Part shown: positions 1 through 17,084 of the stretch, piece after piece | How the letters are laid out: every line of letters starts with the position of its first letter | Position numbering within the stretch: the first letter of the stretch is position 1 | Origin: Candidatus Peribacteraceae bacterium | GTDB lineage: Bacteria > Patescibacteriota > Gracilibacteria > JAHISY01 | Assembly: GCA_021734705.1 (NCBI GenBank) | Contig: JAIPIJ010000003.1 | Span: 1 to 38,517, forward strand | Reading direction: 5' to 3' | DNA: 38,517 bases | The notes under the pieces: model-generated | Database searches by the model: none | The model's input: only the letters and a program-made list of their open reading frames with translations | What the model was told of the DNA's origin: nothing | Translations under genes and position numbers: made by a program

Positions 1-2528
1 TAAGTCGTAATCCTTTTAAATATCTCCGCTTCCACAAATTCTCTATCGCGGCCGTATTTGAGGCGGGAGAGTTGGCGGATTGCCTCAGCCGCTTCTTCAT
101 CTTGACCGGAAGGATCGTAGATCGTCTCTAGTGTGAAACCGCGGCTGGTTGCGTTATTGATATTGAGCTTGATATAAGCTTTGAAGTTTGCGATGTTGAT
201 TAAATCTTGCTCGGAGAATACTGGAGCGAATTCTTTCGCCATCGTCTCGGCATCCTGGGCACCAATCTTGAAGCAGAGCATCGAACCGACATTGCCAAAA
301 ACTGCATCGCGAATTTCTGTGTCTTCATGCTTGCCCTTGCCGCCGCCTTGTGATTTTGTAATTTGTGAAATGTACTGGTGGGCAACGATTAAATTCAAAC
401 GATATTTTCGAGCTTCGGAAAGAATCGAAGCGAAGGAATCAGTCACGAAGTTTTGGAACTCATCGACGTAGAGGTAAAAATCCCGGCGCTCTTTCTCGGG
501 AACATTCACGCGGCTCATCGCGGCTTGCTGGATCTTCGCGACCAGGATCGAACCAATCAGCTGCGAGTTCAATTCGCCGGTCTTACCTTTCGAGAGATTA
601 CAGAGAATAATCTTGCCTTGATCCATCGCCTCGCGGATGTTGAAAGCTGATTTTGTTTGGCCAATGACATTGCGGATCAATCCGTTGGTGACGAAAGGGC
701 CGAATTTAGAGTTGAAGTAAGGAATAATTTCCTGTTTCTCACGCATGCCCGAGCTGGCCATCTCTTTCGTCCAAAAAGCGCGCACGACTGGATTTTTAAC
801 TTTCTCCACTTTGTAGCGCTGCCAAGCTTCGTCAGTGAAGAGCCGAGTCAGGTCAATCAAGGTTGCACCCTCCTCTTGATCTTCCATCAAGGTCAGACAG
901 CCGTTGCGGAAATAATGCTGTAGGCGTGGACCCATGATTTCCTCACCAAACATTTTGATGAAAATTGCTAAGGCTTCCTGCGCCATAAATTCACGTTCAT
1001 CCGCAGTTTTGCCTTCTAGGATATTGAGCCCCATCGGCCGCTCTAGATCACCCGGGTTGAAGTAAATCACATCGTCAGCCCGTGAACGGGGGATATAGGG
1101 CAGCACCGATTCAACCAAATCACCGTGTGGATCGACCAAGCAGAGGCCCTCACCGTTTTGCAAATCTTGCCTGACCATGTTTTCTAGCAGGGTCGACTTA
1201 CCTGTACCAGATTTACCGATGATATAGAAGTGGCGGCGGCGGTCATCCTGTTGGATACGAATATCTCTCTTAACTCCACGATAAGTGTTGTGGCCGAGCA
1301 GCAAGCCTTCTTTCGGGATGTTCTGTGGAGCAGGTTCAACTTTGAAATCCTGCCACTTAACTATCGTCGAAGGGTTGTAACGAATATCTGGAAAGTGAAA
1401 AATCGAAGCAATTTCTTCAGACCCCAAAATCATTTTGCGCTCGAAACGGCGCAGCATCTTCAACCAAGCAATCCAGCCGCGCTTAAAATTACGAAAAATG
1501 AAAGATTCAATTAGCTTACGATTTGAATGGTATTCTGTGTAATAGAATGAGTTGTGTCCTGGAGCGTTAAATTGCTCACAGCTGGCTCGGATAGACTGAA
1601 CAATAGATTTTACCCGGGGTAGGCTGGGAGCACTCGCAACTATACGTATTATGGAATCAAAACCGACGTGCTCAGATTTGTCAGCAATGAGCTTAACCAT
1701 ATCTTGCACATTCTGCGTAACCTGAGCTTTGATTGATCCGTCTTCACCACGCGAAGAAATATATTCGTTTTGCGGTCCACGAAAGAGAATACCTAGGATG
1801 TTGGCTAGGAATCCAAAGGGATGCCTAAAAAAAGCTTTTTTCTTACGAGTAAAAAGCTCATCAGCTAAACTGCGGCATTTCTTGCGCCAACCCGGTCGCA
1901 CTGGGCGCAGCATTATCTGAAAAGCCGCACCTTCGTCCAGATTGATTTTCGAGAAAGCATTGAGGATCGGATTAATTGTTTCACTTTCAAGCTTTTGGAA
2001 AGTCAGCAGGGGTTCGGCGTAGGTTTTTTGAAAAATTAAGTAAGTCCCAGCCGAACGATTACCTTTACGGAAAATGTTGTAATCGGGAACCTGATCAATG
2101 ACGGCATCTTTATAAAAACCTGTAATTTGCTTCTCAACTAACTCACGCACCGCACGCGGCACAACCACAAAAAAATTCAACTCTCCGTCAATCATCGCAT
2201 ACTCTAGGGAGAAAAAATTCTGGCCAATCAGCCGATTTTTAATTTTGCGCGAAAAAATAATCTGTAAATTCTCAAGCAAATGCACCATGATCCCCGTAAT
2301 CTTCTTAAATTCCTTACCGGTGCCAAACTGTTCGTGCTCAGCATCAGCCGACTTATCGTCTTTGGAATCTTTTTTTGGAATCAAAACACGCAAAAAAACC
2401 AGCTCCAGTGAACGCTTGAAGTTCATCCAGCGCGTCAGCATCAGAGCAAGCAGCCAGAGCGCAGCAATCCCGGCAGCGACCAGCCCCCCATAAAAGATCA
2501 CGTAATTCAAAAATTCAGCCGATGTCAT
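1..2528 (-). CDS. VirD4/TraD-like type IV secretion coupling ATPase (3' end beyond window)
   Basis: An open frame of 842 codons runs from ATG at 2528 off the left edge; the first two window bases would begin the next codon (TA-), so the stop may lie just outside. One N-terminal membrane helix (about residues 10-32) is followed by a cytoplasmic part. Walker A GKSGTGKS lies near residues 437-444 and a Walker B-like LYVDEFQNF near 685-692, with VDPHGDL in between. This arrangement matches the large membrane-anchored ATPases annotated in CPR genomes as type IV secretion DNA-binding or TraM-recognition proteins, which by analogy with VirD4/TraD couple substrate to a secretion channel or power pilus assembly. 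It has its own extended -10 promoter and sits downstream of the rsmH-ftsL pair. Its natural partners are the pilin-like genes at 8177-14885. Family call firm, exact role inferred. Confidence 0.85.
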   Translation of the reverse strand, partial: MTSAEFLNYVIFYGGLVAAGIAALWLLALMLTRWMNFKRSLELVFLRVLIPKKDSKDDKSADAEHEQFGTGKEFKKITGIMVHLLENLQIIFSRKIKNRLIGQNFFSLEYAMIDGELNFFVVVPRAVRELVEKQITGFYKDAVIDQVPDYNIFRKGNRSAGTYLIFQKTYAEPLLTFQKLESETINPILNAFSKINLDEGAAFQIMLRPVRPGWRKKCRSLADELFTRKKKAFFRHPFGFLANILGILFRGPQNEYISSRGEDGSIKAQVTQNVQDMVKLIADKSEHVGFDSIIRIVASAPSLPRVKSIVQSIRASCEQFNAPGHNSFYYTEYHSNRKLIESFIFRNFKRGWIAWLKMLRRFERKMILGSEEIASIFHFPDIRYNPSTIVKWQDFKVEPAPQNIPKEGLLLGHNTYRGVKRDIRIQQDDRRRHFYIIGKSGTGKSTLLENMVRQDLQNGEGLCLVDPHGDLVESVLPYIPRSRADDVIYFNPGDLERPMGLNILEGKTADEREFMAQEALAIFIKMFGEEIMGPRLQHYFRNGCLTLMEDQEEGATLIDLTRLFTDEAWQRYKVEKVKNPVVRAFWTKEMASSGMREKQEIIPYFNSKFGPFVTNGLIRNVIGQTKSAFNIREAMDQGKIILCNLSKGKTGELNSQLIGSILVAKIQQAAMSRVNVPEKERRDFYLYVDEFQNFVTDSFASILSEARKYRLNLIVAHQYISQITKSQGGGKGKHEDTEIRDAVFGNVGSMLCFKIGAQDAETMAKEFAPVFSEQDLINIANFKAYIKLNINNATSRGFTLETIYDPSGQDEEAAEAIRQLSRLKYGRDREFVEAEIFKRITT

Positions 2529-8146: not shown

Positions 8147-8154
8147 GCTAAAAT
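8146..8154 (+). promoter_or_regulatory. Extended -10 promoter of the pilin cluster
   Basis: TGCTAAAAT begins at the end of the terminator. The segment 8146-8170 is identical at 24 of 25 positions to 11073-11097, the promoter inside the cluster. Confidence 0.65.
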
Positions 8155-8176
8155 GATGGGATTTAAAAACTAAAAA

Positions 8177-9562
8177 TTGGGGAAAATAAAAGCTAAAATC
8201 CACGCTCTTTTCTCGCGAAATATCCATCATATTCAGGAGCTTCTTTTTGCGGTAGCCTTGATTTTTATTGTCGGCGGCTTCATCTTCGCCAATGCTGGTG
8301 AAGGTGGCGCCCAACTAAAAGCCCTAATTTTGGATGAGTTTCAGCCAAGGACTGAGCTGCTTTCGGCTGATTCAACTCTTTTTCTGCCAAAAGAAGAAGA
8401 CGCGCCTGAAAATGCCGTTAAGTTTTCTGAAGGTGATATAGGTAAATGGTCCGATAATGACAAATTGCTTGAAAATATTTTCCAAAAGACCTTGGTAGCT
8501 CGAATCTTAGAAATTGCTAAATATATTCTTGGAGGAATCTTTATGCTTTTTTTAGGTTTATACGTGTTGAATTTCTTAATGTCAGGCGATAAACAAAAGG
8601 CTTCAGAAGAATTTAACGACCAAATACTTTGGGCCTTTATTGGATTTTTGATACTAGCAATTGCGGAACCATTTTCTCAGGCTTTCACACTGTTGCGTGA
8701 CGGCGGTCAGGTAGATTTGCTTACCGATCCGGAAGCCGCGCTAGCATCGGCCAATATCGTCGGCTTCACTTACCGTTCCGCGGCCCACCTGATTGAGTAT
8801 GTCCTTGGCGGAATTGCCTTACTGACAATGGGCGCCTCTGTGTTCCAAATGATAACTGCTGGCGGTGATGAAGAAGAAGTCAGCAGCGCACGTAAATCAT
8901 TAGCTTGGAGCGCAATAGCCCTAATCATTGTCGGCGGAGCAGCGCTTTTCGTAGATAAAGTTTTGGCCCCACCAGAAACTATTACCAAGCAGCTTGAAGG
9001 AGGACTCGATCCTGGACTTCAGTTGATGGAAATACTCAAATCCGGCCAATCGCAAGCACGCATAGTAATTTTGAATTACGTGAAATATTTCCAAACCTTC
9101 ATCGGAGCTGGAGCTGTACTGATGCTTTTCTTAGCAGGATTCAAGATGGTCTCAGCCTCGGGTGAAGAGGATGTTATCACCAAGCAGCGCAAAATGATTA
9201 CCTGGATTTTTATGGGACTGGCAATTATTTTGATTGCTGAAGCCTTTGTGAATGTTTTTATGCCCGACGTAGGAGGAGAAATCCAGTTCAGTTCGGCAAC
9301 AGCGATCCAAAGTTTTTCGGCTCAGATGGGCGGCTTCACAAATTTCTTGCTCACCTTCACTGCAGCAGTGGCGGTCCTAGCTTTGATCGTCGGAGCACTC
9401 TATACGACTACGGCCTTCGCTAATCCGGAACAAGCTGAAAAGGGTAAGAAAATTATCTTGGCAGCTGCGCTAGGACTCATCGTAACAATCTCGGCCTACG
9501 CTATCGTCAACACCATCCTCTCCAGTGGCAGCGCTGGAGCAGGCATCTCAATTTCAATCTAA
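8177..9562 (+). CDS. Four-unit tandem pilin-like (TrbC/VirB2-type) membrane protein
   Basis: A 461-residue membrane protein with an N-terminal hydrophobic segment (about 22-40) and four two-helix units at about 107-170, 202-265, 300-362 and 388-450, spaced roughly 95 residues. Each unit has a helix, a short polar loop (ITAGGDEEE, VSASGEEDV, AFANPEQAEKGKK) and a second helix. The last ends AYAIVNTIL like the single-unit pilins downstream, and all share a Gly/Ser tail (GAGISISI). TrbC/VirB2-type proteins normally hold one such unit. Start: TAA at 8171-8173 blocks upstream starts, leaving TTG at 8177 without Shine-Dalgarno sequence. Stop is 2 nt before the next gene. Role as pilus or channel subunit inferred. 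Confidence 0.8.
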   Translation: MGKIKAKIHALFSRNIHHIQELLFAVALIFIVGGFIFANAGEGGAQLKALILDEFQPRTELLSADSTLFLPKEEDAPENAVKFSEGDIGKWSDNDKLLENIFQKTLVARILEIAKYILGGIFMLFLGLYVLNFLMSGDKQKASEEFNDQILWAFIGFLILAIAEPFSQAFTLLRDGGQVDLLTDPEAALASANIVGFTYRSAAHLIEYVLGGIALLTMGASVFQMITAGGDEEEVSSARKSLAWSAIALIIVGGAALFVDKVLAPPETITKQLEGGLDPGLQLMEILKSGQSQARIVILNYVKYFQTFIGAGAVLMLFLAGFKMVSASGEEDVITKQRKMITWIFMGLAIILIAEAFVNVFMPDVGGEIQFSSATAIQSFSAQMGGFTNFLLTFTAAVAVLALIVGALYTTTAFANPEQAEKGKKIILAAALGLIVTISAYAIVNTILSSGSAGAGISISI

Positions 9563-9564
9563 AA

Positions 9565-11031
9565 ATGGCCCAAGCAAAAAACAGAGCGCCTTTCATCATC
9601 CGACGAATTGCCAATCGTAATCCGCGCCTGCCGCGGCTTTATCGCAATTCGCGACAAAAACTTTTTCGCTTTGCGTTAGTACTCTTCTTGGCCTTGGTGG
9701 GAGTGGCAAGCCTGTTCTTCTTTGAAAGCAATGTTTCCAACCAGCTCAACTCAAGCCTGCTTACTGCTGACGCTACTGACATCCTTGGAAATGGATTCGA
9801 AGATATCAGCGGCTTCAGCGACACTGCTGAAAATAAATCTGTCGACCAAAAACCCGATGGTTTTAAGGAAGAGGGAATTCAAACAATCAATGCAGTTGTC
9901 TACAACATCAAAGATTATTTTAAATATATCGCTGGCAGTGTAGCGGTGCTCTATATAATCATTTCGGCGTTGCATATAATCCTCGCTCAGGAAAATGAAG
10001 GCATCGAAAAGGGCAAGAAGAATCTCAAGTGGAGCATTTTTGCTCTGGTTGTTGTTTTCGTAATCGACATCATGGTGGTCGCCTTTTATGAGGGCGGCGG
10101 TGGCACGCCAGGGCAAAGCCTAGTAAGTGTTTCAAATGGGACACCTACAGAAACTATGAGTCTATTTAAAAACATCTCACTCTATTTCAAGATCAATGCT
10201 CGCACAATTTTCAGCTATCTGAAAACTATTGTTGGTGCCTTCGCGATCCTGTTTATCTTTTTTGCTGGCGCTCAGATGGTAATGGCTGGCGGTAGTGACG
10301 AAAAGATTGAAAAAGAGAAGAAATACCTGATGCATGTTATTACAGCTTTCGTGAGCATCCTGATGCTCGACACGATGATTTTCGGTTTCATATATCCTGA
10401 GGCCAGCGACGGAACCAATAATCCTGAGTGCATCGAGTTTATGCAGGCCGTCGCAGAAGGCGGCGATCTCACTGCTGCTCCGGCCGGCTGCCGCTCCGCT
10501 GCCGAGCTCGGTCTAGCTGGCTCAGATCAAATCCTCGGGGTTGTACGCTTTTTTGAAACACTGGTCGGAGCGATTGCAATCTTTTTTATTGTTTATTCTG
10601 GTATCGCTATCATCGCTTCAATGGGTGAAGAGGACATTCTTAAAAAACACAAAACAACACTTCTGTGGAGCTTAGCCGGTCTGGTAATTGTCATACTTTC
10701 CAACACGCTGGTTTCGAACTTTTTCTTCGTAGTCGATCCAACGACAGGAGACGCTGGCGTAGAAATTTTAACAGGACTCCACACCATCGCTGGTGTGACT
10801 AATTTTATTGCCGGGTTCGTAGGTATATTCGCAGTAATCTCAATCATAATCGCGGGCTTAACATGGGTGGCTAACTTTGGTAACGACGAACTTGCTAATA
10901 AGTCAAAAAAAGTCATCTTGGGTGCCATAGTCGGCGTGATTCTCTCTGTTTCGGCCTACGCCATAGTCAACACTATCACGAATGCTAACTCTCAGGGCGG
11001 CAGTGGAACTAGTATCGGAATATCAATCTGA
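9565..11031 (+). CDS. Four-unit tandem pilin-like membrane protein with NPR-type N-terminus
   Basis: A 488-residue paralogue of the previous gene. The first 35 residues are strongly basic and carry RRIANRNPR (13-21), shared with two neighbouring proteins; a membrane helix follows (about 36-53). Four two-helix units lie at about 116-175, 215-277, 326-388 and 411-473, with loops such as MAGGSDEKIEKEKK, and the last ends AYAIVNTI followed by GGSGTSIGISI, nearly the same tail as other cluster members. Two Cys (289, 309) lie between units 2 and 3. It starts 2 nt after the preceding stop, so the two are probably coupled. TGA stop. Structural subunit of a secretion or pilus complex inferred. Confidence 0.8.
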   Translation: MAQAKNRAPFIIRRIANRNPRLPRLYRNSRQKLFRFALVLFLALVGVASLFFFESNVSNQLNSSLLTADATDILGNGFEDISGFSDTAENKSVDQKPDGFKEEGIQTINAVVYNIKDYFKYIAGSVAVLYIIISALHIILAQENEGIEKGKKNLKWSIFALVVVFVIDIMVVAFYEGGGGTPGQSLVSVSNGTPTETMSLFKNISLYFKINARTIFSYLKTIVGAFAILFIFFAGAQMVMAGGSDEKIEKEKKYLMHVITAFVSILMLDTMIFGFIYPEASDGTNNPECIEFMQAVAEGGDLTAAPAGCRSAAELGLAGSDQILGVVRFFETLVGAIAIFFIVYSGIAIIASMGEEDILKKHKTTLLWSLAGLVIVILSNTLVSNFFFVVDPTTGDAGVEILTGLHTIAGVTNFIAGFVGIFAVISIIIAGLTWVANFGNDELANKSKKVILGAIVGVILSVSAYAIVNTITNANSQGGSGTSIGISI

Positions 11032-11072: not shown

Positions 11073-11081
11073 TGCTAAAAT
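11073..11081 (+). promoter_or_regulatory. Internal extended -10 promoter in the pilin cluster
   Basis: TGCTAAAAT with downstream sequence matching the 8146 promoter at 24 of 25 positions. It would drive the 43-residue gene and possibly the genes after it. Confidence 0.6.
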
Positions 11082-11130
11082 GATCGGATTTAAAAACAAA
11101 AATTTAAATCAAAAATCTAACCCCCTTAAA

Positions 11131-11262
11131 ATGGCCAAAACAAAAAAGGCTCGCGCGACAAAACGCGCACACTTCTCGGTTCGTGCGATTCGCAACGCTA
11201 ACCCGCGCCAATTTCGCGCTCACCGTGCAGGCAGCGTGCTTGCCCGCATCTTCTCGTTTTAA
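11131..11262 (+). CDS. 43-residue basic protein sharing the NPR motif of its neighbours
   Basis: A very small, highly basic protein starting at ATG 11131. An upstream in-frame start at 11053 lies before the promoter and is rejected. It contains FSVRAIRNANPRQFRAHR, matching RRIANxNPR plus following basic residues at the N-termini of the 9565 and 11301 proteins, then a short hydrophobic end (VLARIFSF). It thus looks like that N-terminal motif alone, without the following domains. It has its own promoter and ends in a hairpin. Function unknown; it could be a regulator, an assembly factor or a decayed gene. Reality supported by motif conservation and promoter. Confidence 0.6.
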   Translation: MAKTKKARATKRAHFSVRAIRNANPRQFRAHRAGSVLARIFSF

Positions 11263-11300: not shown

Positions 11301-12539
11301 ATGCCTCCGAAAACAAAAATTAAAATTCGACGCTCGCGACCGGCGGTGCGTTTCACGGTCCGCCGGATTGCGAATAAAAATCCGCGCAATGCGCGTAGTT
11401 TTCGGCAATTTCGCCAGAAGCTCTCGCGCTTGACAGCGGGACTACTAGCTTTTGGACTACTCGTAAGTGGGATGTTCTTGGGTGGTGGAGATTCTGTCAG
11501 AAGTGAGTTGGCTGCTGTCAACGAGACCGACGTCTACACTTGCACGGCAGGCGCACTTACCGAGGATTTTGAGGATCTGACCACGCGGCTGGCAAATCTT
11601 TCGCGTCAGTTCCCAGAATTAATTGATAATCTTGATTTCTGCGGCGAAGGTGGCTGTGCGGCAGAGGATCAGATTTACGATGACGAAAACCAAATTTGGC
11701 AGATCGAACAAGATCTGACCACGTTAAAAATTGAGATTCAAAGAGCTCAAGGCGAATTTACTGAAATAATCGGGGAGCAAGAGGATCAGGTTCTTTTTTG
11801 TGAGAACGATTCACGCTGCGAATCAGCAGAAGCTGAGTTACGTGAAGCTCGCACTTGCGAAAAAGAGTTTTCTAATCTGTCTGCGCTCATAGATATCCGC
11901 GAAATGGCAGAGAACGAATACTCACTGATCAACCAAAAAGGAGAGAGTAAGCCTGCTGCGAATTATGTAAAAAAGCTAATGGAAGACGTATTTAAAAATC
12001 GCGAGCGGGCTGCCGAAAATCTAAAATTTTACGAACAGTGTGTTGCCACAAGTGACGCCAGTGTTTGCCAAAAATACGTAGCAAAAGTCGATGAAGCTAA
12101 TACTAAAGTGGCCACGGCAATAGCTGAGCTCAGTGACACTCAATTGAGCATCAACAATATTCTCGAAAAACTTGAAGCCGATATCGTAGCGCTAGAAATT
12201 GGCCGCAAAGATGAACAGAACCTTGAAGAAAACATTGGCCTGGGTTGGTGCAAGCAAGAGCTGAAAAATAAAAAATCAGCCCTGTTCAGCAAAATTACAG
12301 CAGCCATTTCTGAAAAAACGGCTTACGACAACGCTTTAGCTGACCTAAAAGCAAAAAAGGAGGCGCTACAAGCTAGCCTGCAGGCAGAGCTAGAAGCGGC
12401 GGCGGCTCAAGCCGCGGCAGAGAAGGCTGCCGCAGAAGAGGCTGTCGCCCATGCTGCTGCTGAGAAAGCTGCTGCTGAGAAAAGGGCCCAAGCTGAAATA
12501 ATCTTTGGAATTTGGAGCTCTATTCGTAACGGTTTCTAA
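11301..12539 (+). CDS. Membrane-anchored or secreted Cys-containing coiled-coil protein with NPR-type N-terminus
   Basis: A 412-residue protein. The basic head has RRIANKNPR (21-29), then a hydrophobic segment (about 44-62) that could be an anchor or long signal peptide. The rest is largely charged and helical with coiled-coil character and about nine Cys (for example CGEGGC near 113-118), suggesting disulfides outside the cytoplasm. Residues about 370-405 form an Ala/Glu/Lys-rich helix (repeated AAAEKAAAE). No pilin unit is present. It lies 3 nt before the next gene, which also starts with coiled coils, so the two may form a stalk or scaffold together. No known family recognised. Confidence 0.65.
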   Translation: MPPKTKIKIRRSRPAVRFTVRRIANKNPRNARSFRQFRQKLSRLTAGLLAFGLLVSGMFLGGGDSVRSELAAVNETDVYTCTAGALTEDFEDLTTRLANLSRQFPELIDNLDFCGEGGCAAEDQIYDDENQIWQIEQDLTTLKIEIQRAQGEFTEIIGEQEDQVLFCENDSRCESAEAELREARTCEKEFSNLSALIDIREMAENEYSLINQKGESKPAANYVKKLMEDVFKNRERAAENLKFYEQCVATSDASVCQKYVAKVDEANTKVATAIAELSDTQLSINNILEKLEADIVALEIGRKDEQNLEENIGLGWCKQELKNKKSALFSKITAAISEKTAYDNALADLKAKKEALQASLQAELEAAAAQAAAEKAAAEEAVAHAAAEKAAAEKRAQAEIIFGIWSSIRNGF

Positions 12540-12542
12540 AAA

Positions 12543-14363
12543 ATGAAATCTAAAAGAATTAATTTTCTCGAAAATAAAAAAGTGCAGTTCGCTGCCATTT
12601 TGGCTATTGTCCTGACCTTAGTCATAGTTGGTGCTCGGCTACAGAGTCGTGAACTTGCAAGTGATGTCGCACTAAACACTAGCGCCATCGCTACAATTCA
12701 AGCTGAGGCCAATAAAGTTAAGTCTGCTCGCGATGAGTATTTTGCTGCTATTGGTAAAGGTGATGGCGGCGCTTACGATGAATATAGTGAAGCCTCAGAT
12801 TGCCCAGCCTATCTCGACACCAGGCTCACCACACTAAAAAACTTGCGCAACGACCTACAGCGCCTGAGTGGTGAGATTGTTATGCGTGAGCGGGAAAACG
12901 AAACTGAGCTACCACGAGGCACTATTGAGCGCGAACTCAATGAGATTGAAAAAGAAATTCGGCCAGCCTTAATCCTCAACCAACTTGAAAGTCTCGAGCT
13001 TGAATTACAAAAAATCGAAACTGCGATAGCTGAGGAAAAAGACAGCGATTACGCCGCACAGATCGCAGACAGCATTGATGCCATCCGTGCGATTTTGGAA
13101 GAAACTGTTACGACTGATGGTATTTCCGAACAACTTGACCTGATCGAATCAAAATCTCCTTACATATCAGTAACTGCTAGTGAAATCACTAGAACTAGTG
13201 TTGCAAATATTCGTGAAATAATTACCGCTAGTGAAGAAAGCACGATTATTCGACAAATCACTCAGGTCATCAGCCAAATTGCCGAAGGCGACAAAGATAT
13301 GGAAGCAATTGAGATCAATCTGCAAAGAATTGAAAGCCGAATCCCAAATCTACCGCAAAGCCAACAAACAGTAGTCCAAAAAAGTGTCGATACTATACGG
13401 AAGCTCTTGGGCCGCAAAAGCTTAGCCGAGGTCCGCGAAAATGAAATAGCCGATTTAGAAAATCAAATCCAGGAGATAACGGATGAAATCTTTTCCCCTG
13501 CGGAGCTTGAGAGAATCAACGCCGAAGAGCAATCTAAGCGTATCGAACTGCAGGAAGCCACGGCTACTTTAGAAAATTGTATGGCTGCAAAGCAGGATTT
13601 GGAGAAGTGCGAAGGCGAGCTGCGAGTTTGGGTTACCAAAAAAGAAAGCTACGCAGCCTTTATCACTAATCTCGAAAATACCATTTCGGCCAAAAACATC
13701 GAACTTGAATCTAAGCTTACGCCGCTACAAAAAGAGCTCAATGAGCTGAAAGCTGAAGAAAATGGATTAAATTTCAGCCCAGATTTGAGCGCCTTAATGC
13801 AAAGCATAGAGCCAAGCATGCTCAAGGCTGATGTAGCGAGTTCCTTCGCTTCTGGATACCAATCAGGCAGCAGTGCTGTTTCAGGATTTTCGGGAGCTTT
13901 AGCTAGCGCCAACGGTTATATCCAAGGCGCTGTCGGTTCTGTAGCAAGCGCGCTGGGTATGTCTGCTAGTACGGTTGGCGGCTTAACATCTTCGGCTGTT
14001 GTCTTTGATGGACCCGGGGCACTTACTGGATTGCAAACTTTCAAAGCAAATTACAAGGGTAATTCTTATGGCAGTGCGATTGGGACAATCACTGGCTGGA
14101 CTAACTTCGTTTTACCGTTCGTGGGGGTAATCGCTATCGCGGCGATTATCTACGCCGGATTCCTTTATCTCACCGCTGCTGGTAACGAAGAGCAAACCAA
14201 GAAGGCTAAGAACATCATCATGTGGGTTGTGATCGGCATCATCCTGATCTTCTCGGCTTACGCTATCGTCAACTCACTCCTCTCAACCAATAGTAGTAGT
14301 GGCGGCAGCGGTACAAGTGTCGGCATCAATATTGGTGGAATCGGCGTTAACTATAGTGATTAA
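12543..14363 (+). CDS. Coiled-coil protein ending in a single pilin-like unit
   Basis: A 606-residue protein with an N-terminal membrane helix (about 14-31), a long extracytoplasmic coiled-coil region (about 45-420), a Ser/Gly/Ala-rich linker (about 430-500) and one C-terminal pilin-like unit (514-580). That unit has GWTNF, YLTAAGNEEQTKKAKN and a second helix ending AYAIVNSLL, followed by a Gly/Ser tail GGSGTSVGINI. The C-terminal unit is very similar to the next, single-pilin gene. The architecture suggests a long stalk tethered to a pilin-like base or a minor tip subunit. Spacing of 3 nt on both sides supports one operon. Confidence 0.75.
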   Translation: MKSKRINFLENKKVQFAAILAIVLTLVIVGARLQSRELASDVALNTSAIATIQAEANKVKSARDEYFAAIGKGDGGAYDEYSEASDCPAYLDTRLTTLKNLRNDLQRLSGEIVMRERENETELPRGTIERELNEIEKEIRPALILNQLESLELELQKIETAIAEEKDSDYAAQIADSIDAIRAILEETVTTDGISEQLDLIESKSPYISVTASEITRTSVANIREIITASEESTIIRQITQVISQIAEGDKDMEAIEINLQRIESRIPNLPQSQQTVVQKSVDTIRKLLGRKSLAEVRENEIADLENQIQEITDEIFSPAELERINAEEQSKRIELQEATATLENCMAAKQDLEKCEGELRVWVTKKESYAAFITNLENTISAKNIELESKLTPLQKELNELKAEENGLNFSPDLSALMQSIEPSMLKADVASSFASGYQSGSSAVSGFSGALASANGYIQGAVGSVASALGMSASTVGGLTSSAVVFDGPGALTGLQTFKANYKGNSYGSAIGTITGWTNFVLPFVGVIAIAAIIYAGFLYLTAAGNEEQTKKAKNIIMWVVIGIILIFSAYAIVNSLLSTNSSSGGSGTSVGINIGGIGVNYSD

Positions 14364-14366
14364 AAA

Positions 14367-14885
14367 ATGCAGACCAAAACTAAATCTCGCGATATACGCT
14401 TGGTAATTGGAGTCATACTCACAACCTTCGTGGTCGCAGTTTCTTTTTTTGGAAGAGTGTTTGGCGAAGATTTGAAAGCTGCTGTAGGTGTAAATCTTGG
14501 CAGCAGTGGACTTGGTGTGGATGTTTCAACTGGAGGATTTAGTTTCAGCACGGGCGGTGGTTCCGCTGTCCAGCCTGGCTGCGGCGGCGGAAATTGTTTA
14601 GTTGCGCCCGATGCCGGAGCTTATTCGGGAATTGTCGCAGCAACTTCGATTCGCGAAGCGATCATCAACTGGACAAACTTCTTTCTAGGCTTTCTGGCAC
14701 TGATCGCGATGATTATTTTGATCTTCGCTGGATTTATGTATATCACTGCTGCCGGTAATGATGAACAAGCTAAAAAGGCTAAGAATACAATTATGTGGGT
14801 CGTGGTAGGCATCATCGTCATCCTGATTGCCTATGCTCTTGTAAATACCCTCATAACCACCGGACCTTCCGGTCGAGATTATTAA
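14367..14885 (+). CDS. Single-unit TrbC/VirB2-like pilin
   Basis: A 172-residue protein with a signal-like hydrophobic segment (about 11-33), a Gly/Ser-rich middle with two Cys (72, 77), and one two-helix unit at 97-162. The signature runs NWTNFF, then AGFMYITAAGNDEQAKKAKN, then IMWVVVGII and AYALVN. This is the form commonly annotated in CPR as TrbC/VirB2 or Mbov_0395 pilin-like conjugal transfer protein. It is the simplest member of the cluster and probably represents the ancestral unit of the tandem proteins. It lies 9 nt before the PKD gene and 3 nt after the coiled-coil pilin gene. Confidence 0.85.
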   Translation: MQTKTKSRDIRLVIGVILTTFVVAVSFFGRVFGEDLKAAVGVNLGSSGLGVDVSTGGFSFSTGGGSAVQPGCGGGNCLVAPDAGAYSGIVAATSIREAIINWTNFFLGFLALIAMIILIFAGFMYITAAGNDEQAKKAKNTIMWVVVGIIVILIAYALVNTLITTGPSGRDY

Positions 14886-14894
14886 TAATTTAAA

Positions 14895-17084
14895 ATGGAT
14901 AATCAAAACCTCTCCGACTTCGACGAAGTAGCTGCTCCAAAATCAAGCGAGGAGACCATCGGCTCGATGGCAGACGAGTCAAAAGATAAACCTGCCCACA
15001 AACCCTTGAATGGCAGAAAAATGGCTTTTGGCTGTTTGTTTCTGTTCCTATCAGTTTTTCTGATTCTCCTCCTAGCGATGGCATTCGGGTTAAACGCCAA
15101 GGAGGAAACCATCCTTAGTCTTGGGCTCAATCCGGTCAGCCTAAAAAACTGGTCTATCGGCATGGTGAACTTCCTATTCGGAGCAATCGCCCTAACTAGC
15201 ATAATTATCTTAGTCTCGAGCTTAGCTCGCAGATTACTTTCCAAACAAGATGACCGCGTTGGAAAATCACAGGCCAGCAAACGCTCTTTTGCCAGTCTTG
15301 CTATTTTTGCCGTTACTATAGGCCTGTGGTTTGTAACTTACGATTATTTCAGCCAGTTTGAGATGAAGGAGCCTGAACTGCCAATTGAGATTATTACTAA
15401 GCCTACCGACACGCTTAACCTAACTTCACCAATCCGCGTGGAGTTTTCAGCAGAGCGGATTACTGCTAAGTTTGAAGGTGATGGGAAATACGACGTTATC
15501 AGTTATGAGTGGGATAAAGAAAGTGACGGTGGCGTAGATGCGACCGGACCAAAAGTAACGATTTACTTCGTTGACGGCGGAAAAAATAACGGCGTCTTTA
15601 ATGTGAATCTACTAGTTAAACTAAAACCCAAGAGTGGTGGTGAAATCGAAACACGGGAATATCAGAAGGAGGTTTCTATCCCTAATCAGGAAATCTACGG
15701 AGAAATTACAACCGACAAAAGTTCGGGGGAAGCTCCGCTGACCGTACGTTTTGATGCTAGTAATATTCAAGATCCAAGCTTAGCGAAAATTACCAACTTT
15801 AGTTGGGATCTCGATGGCGACGGTCGTCCGGATCGTGATGGATCATCTTATGGCACGACTGAGTGGACTTTTGAGACTATCGGTGAGCACACGGTCACCC
15901 TCACAGTAACCTCAGAAGATTTTAATGCGGACGGAACCCACGAAACAAAAACCTTCGAAAAGAAGATTACTGTCCGCGAAGCAGCTGGCACAGTCAAATC
16001 TGAAGTTTGGATTGAAGCCACTCCGCAACGCGGCTTTTCACCGCTATCAGTTACCTTGATAGCCAACCAGAAATCAGTAGATACCCAGCTTCCCAGAATT
16101 GATAAATACGAATGGCGTATTGGTGATGGTCTGGCAACTTTATGGGGCCAACGCACACGCTACACCTTCGAAAAACCGGGTAATTATCCAGTTTTGTTGG
16201 TAGTAACTTTCGCCAATGGGCAAACCAGCGAAGCAACTGAGGAAATTATTGTCAACGACGAAAGCTTCACGCCGACTGCCAAAATTAATACCGATCCAGA
16301 GATTAACCGCAGCAAAAAGGCCGTTACTGGCCCGGCTCCGCTATCAGTAGAGTTTGACGCTACAAGCTCAGTGGATCCTGATGATAATATCGTTAAATAC
16401 GAATGGGATTTTGATGGTGACGGCCTTTGGGATGATGAAGGCAGCTCGACTACATATGAGTTTCGTGACGCCGGCGAATACGAAAGTGTGCTGCGTGTTA
16501 CTGATGCCGACGGCAACGAATCCCGATCCGAAATTACTATTTCTGTAGATGAAGAAAATGCAATTGTTAATTTCGGTGCAGATAAACTATCGGGTGCTGC
16601 TCCAGTAACAGTTAATTTCGACGCATCCGGATCACGAGTACCAACTGGTAAAAAAATCATCTCTTATGAATGGAATTTTGATTTAGAAAATCGCGCTCAG
16701 AAACAAAATTTCATTTATGAACGTGCCCAAACTTCTCATATATTTGAGACAGTCGGTGAATACATCGTCGAATTAACTTTGCATACCGATGATGGAGGGG
16801 AATATTCAGACAGCATAAAAATAGTGGCTTCTTACGCTTCTCTGTCAGCTAATTTCAGCATGTCGCGCACTAGTGGAAATGCACCTCTGGCAGTATCCTT
16901 TGACGCAACAGCCTCAAGCGGTAATGTCGATCGAGTAGAATGGGATTTCGATGATGGATCGGCTAGTACAATCGAAAAACCAACTCATGTTTTCGAAAAT
17001 CCTGGTAAATACGAAATCATCCTGAAAGTCTATGATGCTTTCGGAAACGTTTCCCAGACTAGTAAAAATGTTACCGTAAATTAA
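14895..17084 (+). CDS. Membrane-anchored multi-PKD-domain surface protein
   Basis: A 729-residue protein with a polar N-terminus, three membrane helices (about 44-64, 88-110 and 132-150) and an extracytoplasmic region of about five or six PKD-like beta-sandwich domains. The repeated PKD signatures are visible: APLTVRFDAS, YEWDFDGDG, HVFENPGKYEIILKVYDAFG and similar at roughly 90-residue spacing from about 272 to 729. PKD domains mediate protein or glycan contacts on surface structures. Its place directly after the pilin genes suggests an adhesin or outer part of the same apparatus. Asp-rich loops (DLDGDGRPDRDG) may bind calcium. Confidence 0.85.
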   Translation: MDNQNLSDFDEVAAPKSSEETIGSMADESKDKPAHKPLNGRKMAFGCLFLFLSVFLILLLAMAFGLNAKEETILSLGLNPVSLKNWSIGMVNFLFGAIALTSIIILVSSLARRLLSKQDDRVGKSQASKRSFASLAIFAVTIGLWFVTYDYFSQFEMKEPELPIEIITKPTDTLNLTSPIRVEFSAERITAKFEGDGKYDVISYEWDKESDGGVDATGPKVTIYFVDGGKNNGVFNVNLLVKLKPKSGGEIETREYQKEVSIPNQEIYGEITTDKSSGEAPLTVRFDASNIQDPSLAKITNFSWDLDGDGRPDRDGSSYGTTEWTFETIGEHTVTLTVTSEDFNADGTHETKTFEKKITVREAAGTVKSEVWIEATPQRGFSPLSVTLIANQKSVDTQLPRIDKYEWRIGDGLATLWGQRTRYTFEKPGNYPVLLVVTFANGQTSEATEEIIVNDESFTPTAKINTDPEINRSKKAVTGPAPLSVEFDATSSVDPDDNIVKYEWDFDGDGLWDDEGSSTTYEFRDAGEYESVLRVTDADGNESRSEITISVDEENAIVNFGADKLSGAAPVTVNFDASGSRVPTGKKIISYEWNFDLENRAQKQNFIYERAQTSHIFETVGEYIVELTLHTDDGGEYSDSIKIVASYASLSANFSMSRTSGNAPLAVSFDATASSGNVDRVEWDFDDGSASTIEKPTHVFENPGKYEIILKVYDAFGNVSQTSKNVTVN

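Follow-up and report, generated by a model that had tools for sequence, protein, structure and literature searches.

Two adjacent genes in the window, the 38,517-nucleotide stretch of DNA analysed here, each encode four tandem type IV secretion system (T4SS) pilin units in one polypeptide. We estimate at about 55% the probability that their products, A and B, stay uncut as multi-hairpin relatives of T4SS pilins and serve as a fixed membrane part in the T4SS or pilus machine of Patescibacteria. The source is a tiny parasite-like bacterium of the Gracilibacteria lineage of Patescibacteria, and the window is an entire contig of its 854 kb draft genome. The multi-unit design is class-wide and no private invention of this genome, and the 4+4 arrangement of the window is a local expansion of a 3+3 pair.

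Genes A and B lie on the same strand with a gap of two bases (Table 1). Against the curated Pfam cut-off of 26.6 bits for PF18895 (T4SS_pilin), the whole proteins scored 84.1 (A) and 100.1 bits (B), and seven of the eight units exceeded that cut-off singly in a six-frame search, the exception being unit 4 of B. The NCBIfam model NF045849 (Mbov_0395 pilin-like conjugal transfer protein) gave four above-cut-off stretches in each protein. The initial annotation had described four repeats per protein at a spacing of about 95 residues; eight PF18895-matching units and the NF045849 stretches bear this out, and successive units were measured to lie 90-96 aa apart in A and 84-110 aa apart in B. The last repeats end in ISAYAIVNTI and VSAYAIVNTI with a Gly/Ser tail and an -ISI terminus, and the likeness that had been seen to a single pilin downstream (14367-14885, ending IAYALVNTLI) also holds. 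What did not stand is the family: the units are pilin-like and mutually related, as had been claimed, but they match PF18895 and not TrbC/VirB2 (PF04956), a Pfam model that left A and B unmatched at E values up to 1 and that reached sub-threshold scores in D (23.5 bits) and E (26.6 bits; cut-off 27.9). Orthologs of gene A share 63-66% identity. Plasmid records contained no match.

Table 1 Features of the window, with their positions and the evidence for each.
Feature	Position	Strand	Evidence
T4CP, VirD4/TraD-like coupling ATPase, truncated by window edge	3..2528	-	PF10412 E 3.5e-10
Leader/promoter-like 24-mer GCTAAAATGATGGGATTTAAAAAC before gene A; second copy 11074-11097	8147..8170	+	two exact matches in the window, shuffles expect 0
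Gene A ('F' protein), 461 aa, TTG start: signal/TM at the N terminus, then a short ectodomain and four pilin hairpins	8177..9562	+	PF18895 E 7e-24, four stretches
A unit 1 (F-4; additional N-terminal unit, F-3-like)	8489..8677	+	PF18895 30.9 bits; held-out profile F-3 best in 5/5 family members
A unit 2 (F-3)	8777..8953	+	PF18895 32.3 bits
A unit 3 (F-2)	9065..9259	+	PF18895 28.1 bits
A unit 4 (F-1), nearest to canonical single pilins	9335..9517	+	PF18895 28.4 bits; F-1 profile best
Gene B ('S' protein), 488 aa: N-terminal Arg-rich leader + TM, four pilin hairpins	9565..11031	+	PF18895 E 7.2e-29, four stretches
B unit 1 (S-4)	9880..10086	+	PF18895 46.2 bits
B unit 2 (S-3)	10201..10386	+	PF18895 34.8 bits
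B unit 3 (S-2)	10531..10722	+	PF18895 30.8 bits
B unit 4 (S-1)	10783..10977	+	PF18895 25.4 bits, slightly below cut-off 26.6
Gene C: single N-terminal TM + largely helical/coiled-coil ectodomain; kept only within family	11301..12539	+	no Pfam family
Gene D, 606 aa: N-terminal TM, coiled-coil ectodomain, single C-terminal pilin hairpin	12543..14363	+	PF18895 E 1.8e-10, residues 513-577
Gene E: single pilin	14367..14885	+	PF18895 E 3.9e-11
Gene F: five-PKD membrane protein	14895..17084	+	PF18911 E 2.6e-59

To place the pair in its class we searched 40 relatives, read about 60 loci and examined ten further class genomes. An adjacent, same-strand pair of tandem pilin genes was present in about 31 of the 40 sampled genomes and in all ten further ones. 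Nearly all pairs are 3+3; the 4+4 composition was confined to the window's family (G000, G001, G003, G004 and G005, with the locus of G002 interrupted by a contig end). The claim that a pilin unit had been multiplied inside one gene is borne out. Families f10 and f13 and genome G027 yielded no tandem pair. In f10 (G014, G025 and G034) VirB4 is present and a tandem pilin undetectable, which means that a T4SS does not need the pair in every case, and this family offers a natural comparison for asking what need the pair serves. Outside the class, arrays of one-unit genes are the rule. The exceptions are four-unit open reading frames (ORFs) in family f30 (L115, L118 and L128) and two-unit ORFs in several other families, and because of these unit fusion probably occurred more than once.

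Against the idea of an unrelated polytopic transporter with a chance likeness to pilins, which the initial annotation had named among the outcomes that would overturn its reading, stand four independent pilin matches per protein, a second matching family in NF045849 and class-wide orthologs of the same layout. Its side of the balance holds weak, sub-cut-off, off-target Pfam matches (DUF350, Cyt_bd_oxida_II), and we regard it as hardly credible.

Several families also carry secondary pilin loci with a two-unit protein, at 1057-2498 of L072 (the source genome's own contig C15), 9477-11023 of L068 and 12123-13834 of L061; the latter two have the order single, double, single, and L068 has a VirB4 gene at a distance of about 6 kb. 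In G015 (L047/L146) the two tandem genes look split; this splitting was rejected, as every interrupting codon is TGA, consistent with a recoded TGA. The in-frame TGA codons occupy four junction or leader sites (452-454, 1057-1059, 1375-1377 and 1411-1413 of L146), which suggests that TGA is recoded and rarely used in this genome.

We asked whether the units are distinguishable by position. Designating the first gene of a pair F and the second S, and numbering units from the C terminus, we built one profile for each of six positions (F-3 to F-1 and S-3 to S-1) and scored each unit with its relatives held out. The correct gene and position were recovered for 129 of 156 units when close relatives were held out and for 107 of 156 when whole families were, against about 26 expected by chance; each hairpin thus retains an identity of its own. 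Eleven further class loci, ten of them from non-training genomes and some sharing families with the training set, gave the order F-3, F-2, F-1, S-3, S-2, S-1 with hardly an error. In the 4+4 family the additional first units scored best with F-3 (5/5) and S-3 (4/5) and therefore look like copies of the first units. F-1 and S-1 resemble each other and single pilins, and the N-terminal units are more divergent. An attempt to assign separate pilins of other classes to the six positions failed, nearly all of them scoring best against a single-pilin profile.

Such kept identities would fit parts with a fixed place and would be unexpected for interchangeable subunits. They bear on the alternative that the linked protomers enter the pilus filament directly, one chain filling three or four neighbouring subunit positions. 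The predicted topology would put the linkers on one face, as the N and C termini of VirB2-type pilins allow, and the C-terminal unit is like single pilins. The strict identity of each position and a gene pair that is always 1+1 nevertheless suit a structure of fixed composition better than a long filament, and other parts of the genome encode single pilins in abundance, so that we consider direct entry into the filament unlikely. The six-frame search placed further pilin loci on contigs C15, C16, C24, C37 and C44.

The density of Lys and Arg is 0.20 in the hairpin loops versus 0.06 in the linkers. Because K/R-rich segments are cytoplasmic under the positive-inside rule, the loops are predicted to face the cytoplasm and the linkers to lie outside, an arrangement shared with VirB2. 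Two Cys residues of B (~289 and ~309), in the linker that joins unit 2 to unit 3, are kept in all four aligned orthologs, and this external linker is otherwise variable in length; the pair possibly forms a disulphide.

If the chains were polyproteins, their linkers would be cut and the released pilins would assemble into a mixed pilus, with the economy that several pilins are made in a fixed ratio; cleavage into separate pilins had also been raised in the initial annotation. Like units do occur as separate genes in the arrays of other Patescibacteria, and a few arrays combine one-, two- and four-unit ORFs (L115, L118 and L128). The motif [AV]xA, however, followed the N-terminal hydrophobic core in 32 of 52 cases versus 11.7 by shuffling, an excess that serves as positive control for the internal junctions, where it occurred after 23 of 114 units versus 20.8 by shuffling. 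Cleavage is therefore unsupported: the AxA-type signal is clear at true signal peptides and at chance level inside the chain. Nor do the later units carry their own signal peptides, and linker length (mostly 16-50 aa) is kept, in A together with linker sequence. An internal cut by a different protease is possible, yet we think the polyprotein a doubtful candidate. The position-specific units conserved across the class and internal junctions free of a signal-peptidase signature instead uphold the earlier proposal of covalently linked units.

Structure prediction added little. AlphaFold2 models of A and B, with four orthologs each, had mean pLDDT values of 37.5 and 47.9, so low that only the helix-loop-helix pattern is usable from them. 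Foldseek with the poor model of B returned nothing below E 0.5 from the PDB, and a profile search of PDB sequences gave no match.

Two of the genes 3' of the pair, D and E, also bear pilin hairpins. In the window the order is C, D, E and then the five-PKD membrane protein encoded by gene F, homologs of which lie downstream of the pair in many class members. Gene C has homologs at the equivalent place in L042, L069, L070, L071 and L077. The pilin unit at the C terminus of D is an additional pilin that the initial annotation had overlooked. Elsewhere in the class, many members have behind the pair a protein of 1500-2080 aa that carries a pilin hairpin at its N terminus, with a PKD membrane protein next in line; in the window's family C, D and E occupy the place of this giant. 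Giants of 1600-2080 aa with one N-terminal pilin hairpin lie at L044:9004-14034, L055:9914-14845, L052:1862-8065 and L056:4279-10521, and PKD domains were confirmed in those of L044 and L055, the two scanned. Since these hairpins bear long external domains, the pilin hairpin appears to serve also as a standard membrane plug or anchor for surface parts. The NCBIfam model 'CPR_pilus_PamR' was rejected as an assignment for the PKD proteins, its scores being far under the cut-off and probably reflecting shared PKD-like folds.

The 24-base leader GCTAAAATGATSGGATTTAAAAAC stands at 8147-8170, preceding gene A, and at 11074-11097, in the region before gene C; it may be a promoter common to A-B and C-D-E-F through which the two groups are co-regulated. 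Between B and C a 43-aa ORF (11131-11262) has an Arg-rich N-terminal motif, R-x-I-x-N-x-NPR, with no TM helix before the stop. B (9565-9735) and C (11343-11465) have the same motif, and the small ORF could be a sorting signal or a gene remnant.

The link to a T4SS comes from gene content and neighbourhood. VirB4 was found in 39 of the 40 class genomes; that of the source genome is on contig C35 (PF19044, 1.7e-26), not adjacent to the pair. The T4CP gene lies 5.6 kb from the pair both in the window and in L069, and homologs of it adjoin the pair in families f3, f7 and f14 (L059, L062 and L080); in L080 the homolog lies immediately upstream in the same orientation, about 20 bp away. The sole Patescibacteria species tested genetically needs its T4SS to grow on the host (PMC10633639), and in Southlakia epibionticum the T4SS cluster contains an essential set of six pilins (PMC10633639, PMC12857230).

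One way to accommodate 8-9 predicted TM helices in each protein is that the pair substitutes for VirB6/TrbL, the polytopic inner-membrane subunit for pilin assembly in known T4SSs. The TrbL model PF04610 matched neither A nor B nor anything else in the source genome. It was found in 0 of 21 class genomes versus 55 of 220 other Patescibacteria (Fisher p 0.005), in keeping with the published absence of VirB6 from Gracilibacteria (PMC12102498). This contrast is only a lead, because the class is a single clade and amounts to one evolutionary event, sensitivity outside the class is only 25%, and a diverged VirB6 may escape detection. PF19590 (TrbL_3) matched nothing anywhere, controls included, and so is uninformative. 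Moreover, two-unit pilins occur alongside TrbL-like genes in G054, G072 and G089, and a substitution for VirB6 strikes us as rather improbable.

For A and B as an uncut, fixed membrane component, the following sequence of events would apply. A single N-terminal signal sequence would be removed or kept as an anchor, and the chain would cross the cytoplasmic membrane in the form of helix-loop-helix hairpins, four here and three elsewhere; as judged from charge, their loops would face the cytoplasm and the linkers the outside. Encoded back to back, A and B would probably pair to give eight (elsewhere six) covalently ordered hairpins. We infer this pairing, a role at the machine's base as a collar or platform that does not polymerise, and a T4SS function for both proteins. 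Single pilins may then join the collar, whether from gene E, the C terminus of D or the pilin-PKD giants of relatives. At its boldest, and quite unlikely in our judgement, the proposal would be that in Gracilibacteria two ancient position-specific concatemers form a fixed pseudo-hexameric or pseudo-octameric membrane ring that replaces VirB6 as the platform for T4SS pilus assembly or translocation.

A class-wide concatemer pair with a fixed unit order provides a defined part that can be tagged, deleted and imaged, and it bears, as evidence from nature, on the number of pilin positions that a T4SS base may need to hold fixed. Surveys of VirB2 in the class count such multi-unit proteins as single pilins. 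The literature searched, subscription papers and preprints apart, nowhere mentions multi-unit pilins; the tandem pilin pair is real, ancient within the class and apparently undescribed.

Among known systems, the closest are the PF18895 pilin arrays of Patescibacteria, which share the hairpin unit, the phylum and T4SS-bearing genomes (PMC12102498, PMC10633639, PMC12857230). These VirB2-like arrays of 2-11 genes (PMC12102498) consist of separate one-unit genes, whereas the tandem proteins of the class hold 3-4 units per polypeptide, in a constant pair of conserved unit order. NF045849 of mycoplasma ICEs shows an above-cut-off likeness, and its model of 80 residues covers one unit, presumably describing single-unit proteins. 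VirB2/TrbC (PF04956) likewise has two TM helices, a short charged cytoplasmic loop and an N-terminal signal, all predicted for A and B, but it has one unit and polymerises, whereas A and B have four. VirB6/TrbL, as a polytopic T4SS membrane protein, is a possible functional counterpart, to which A and B, made of pilin units, showed no sequence match in the Pfam scan.
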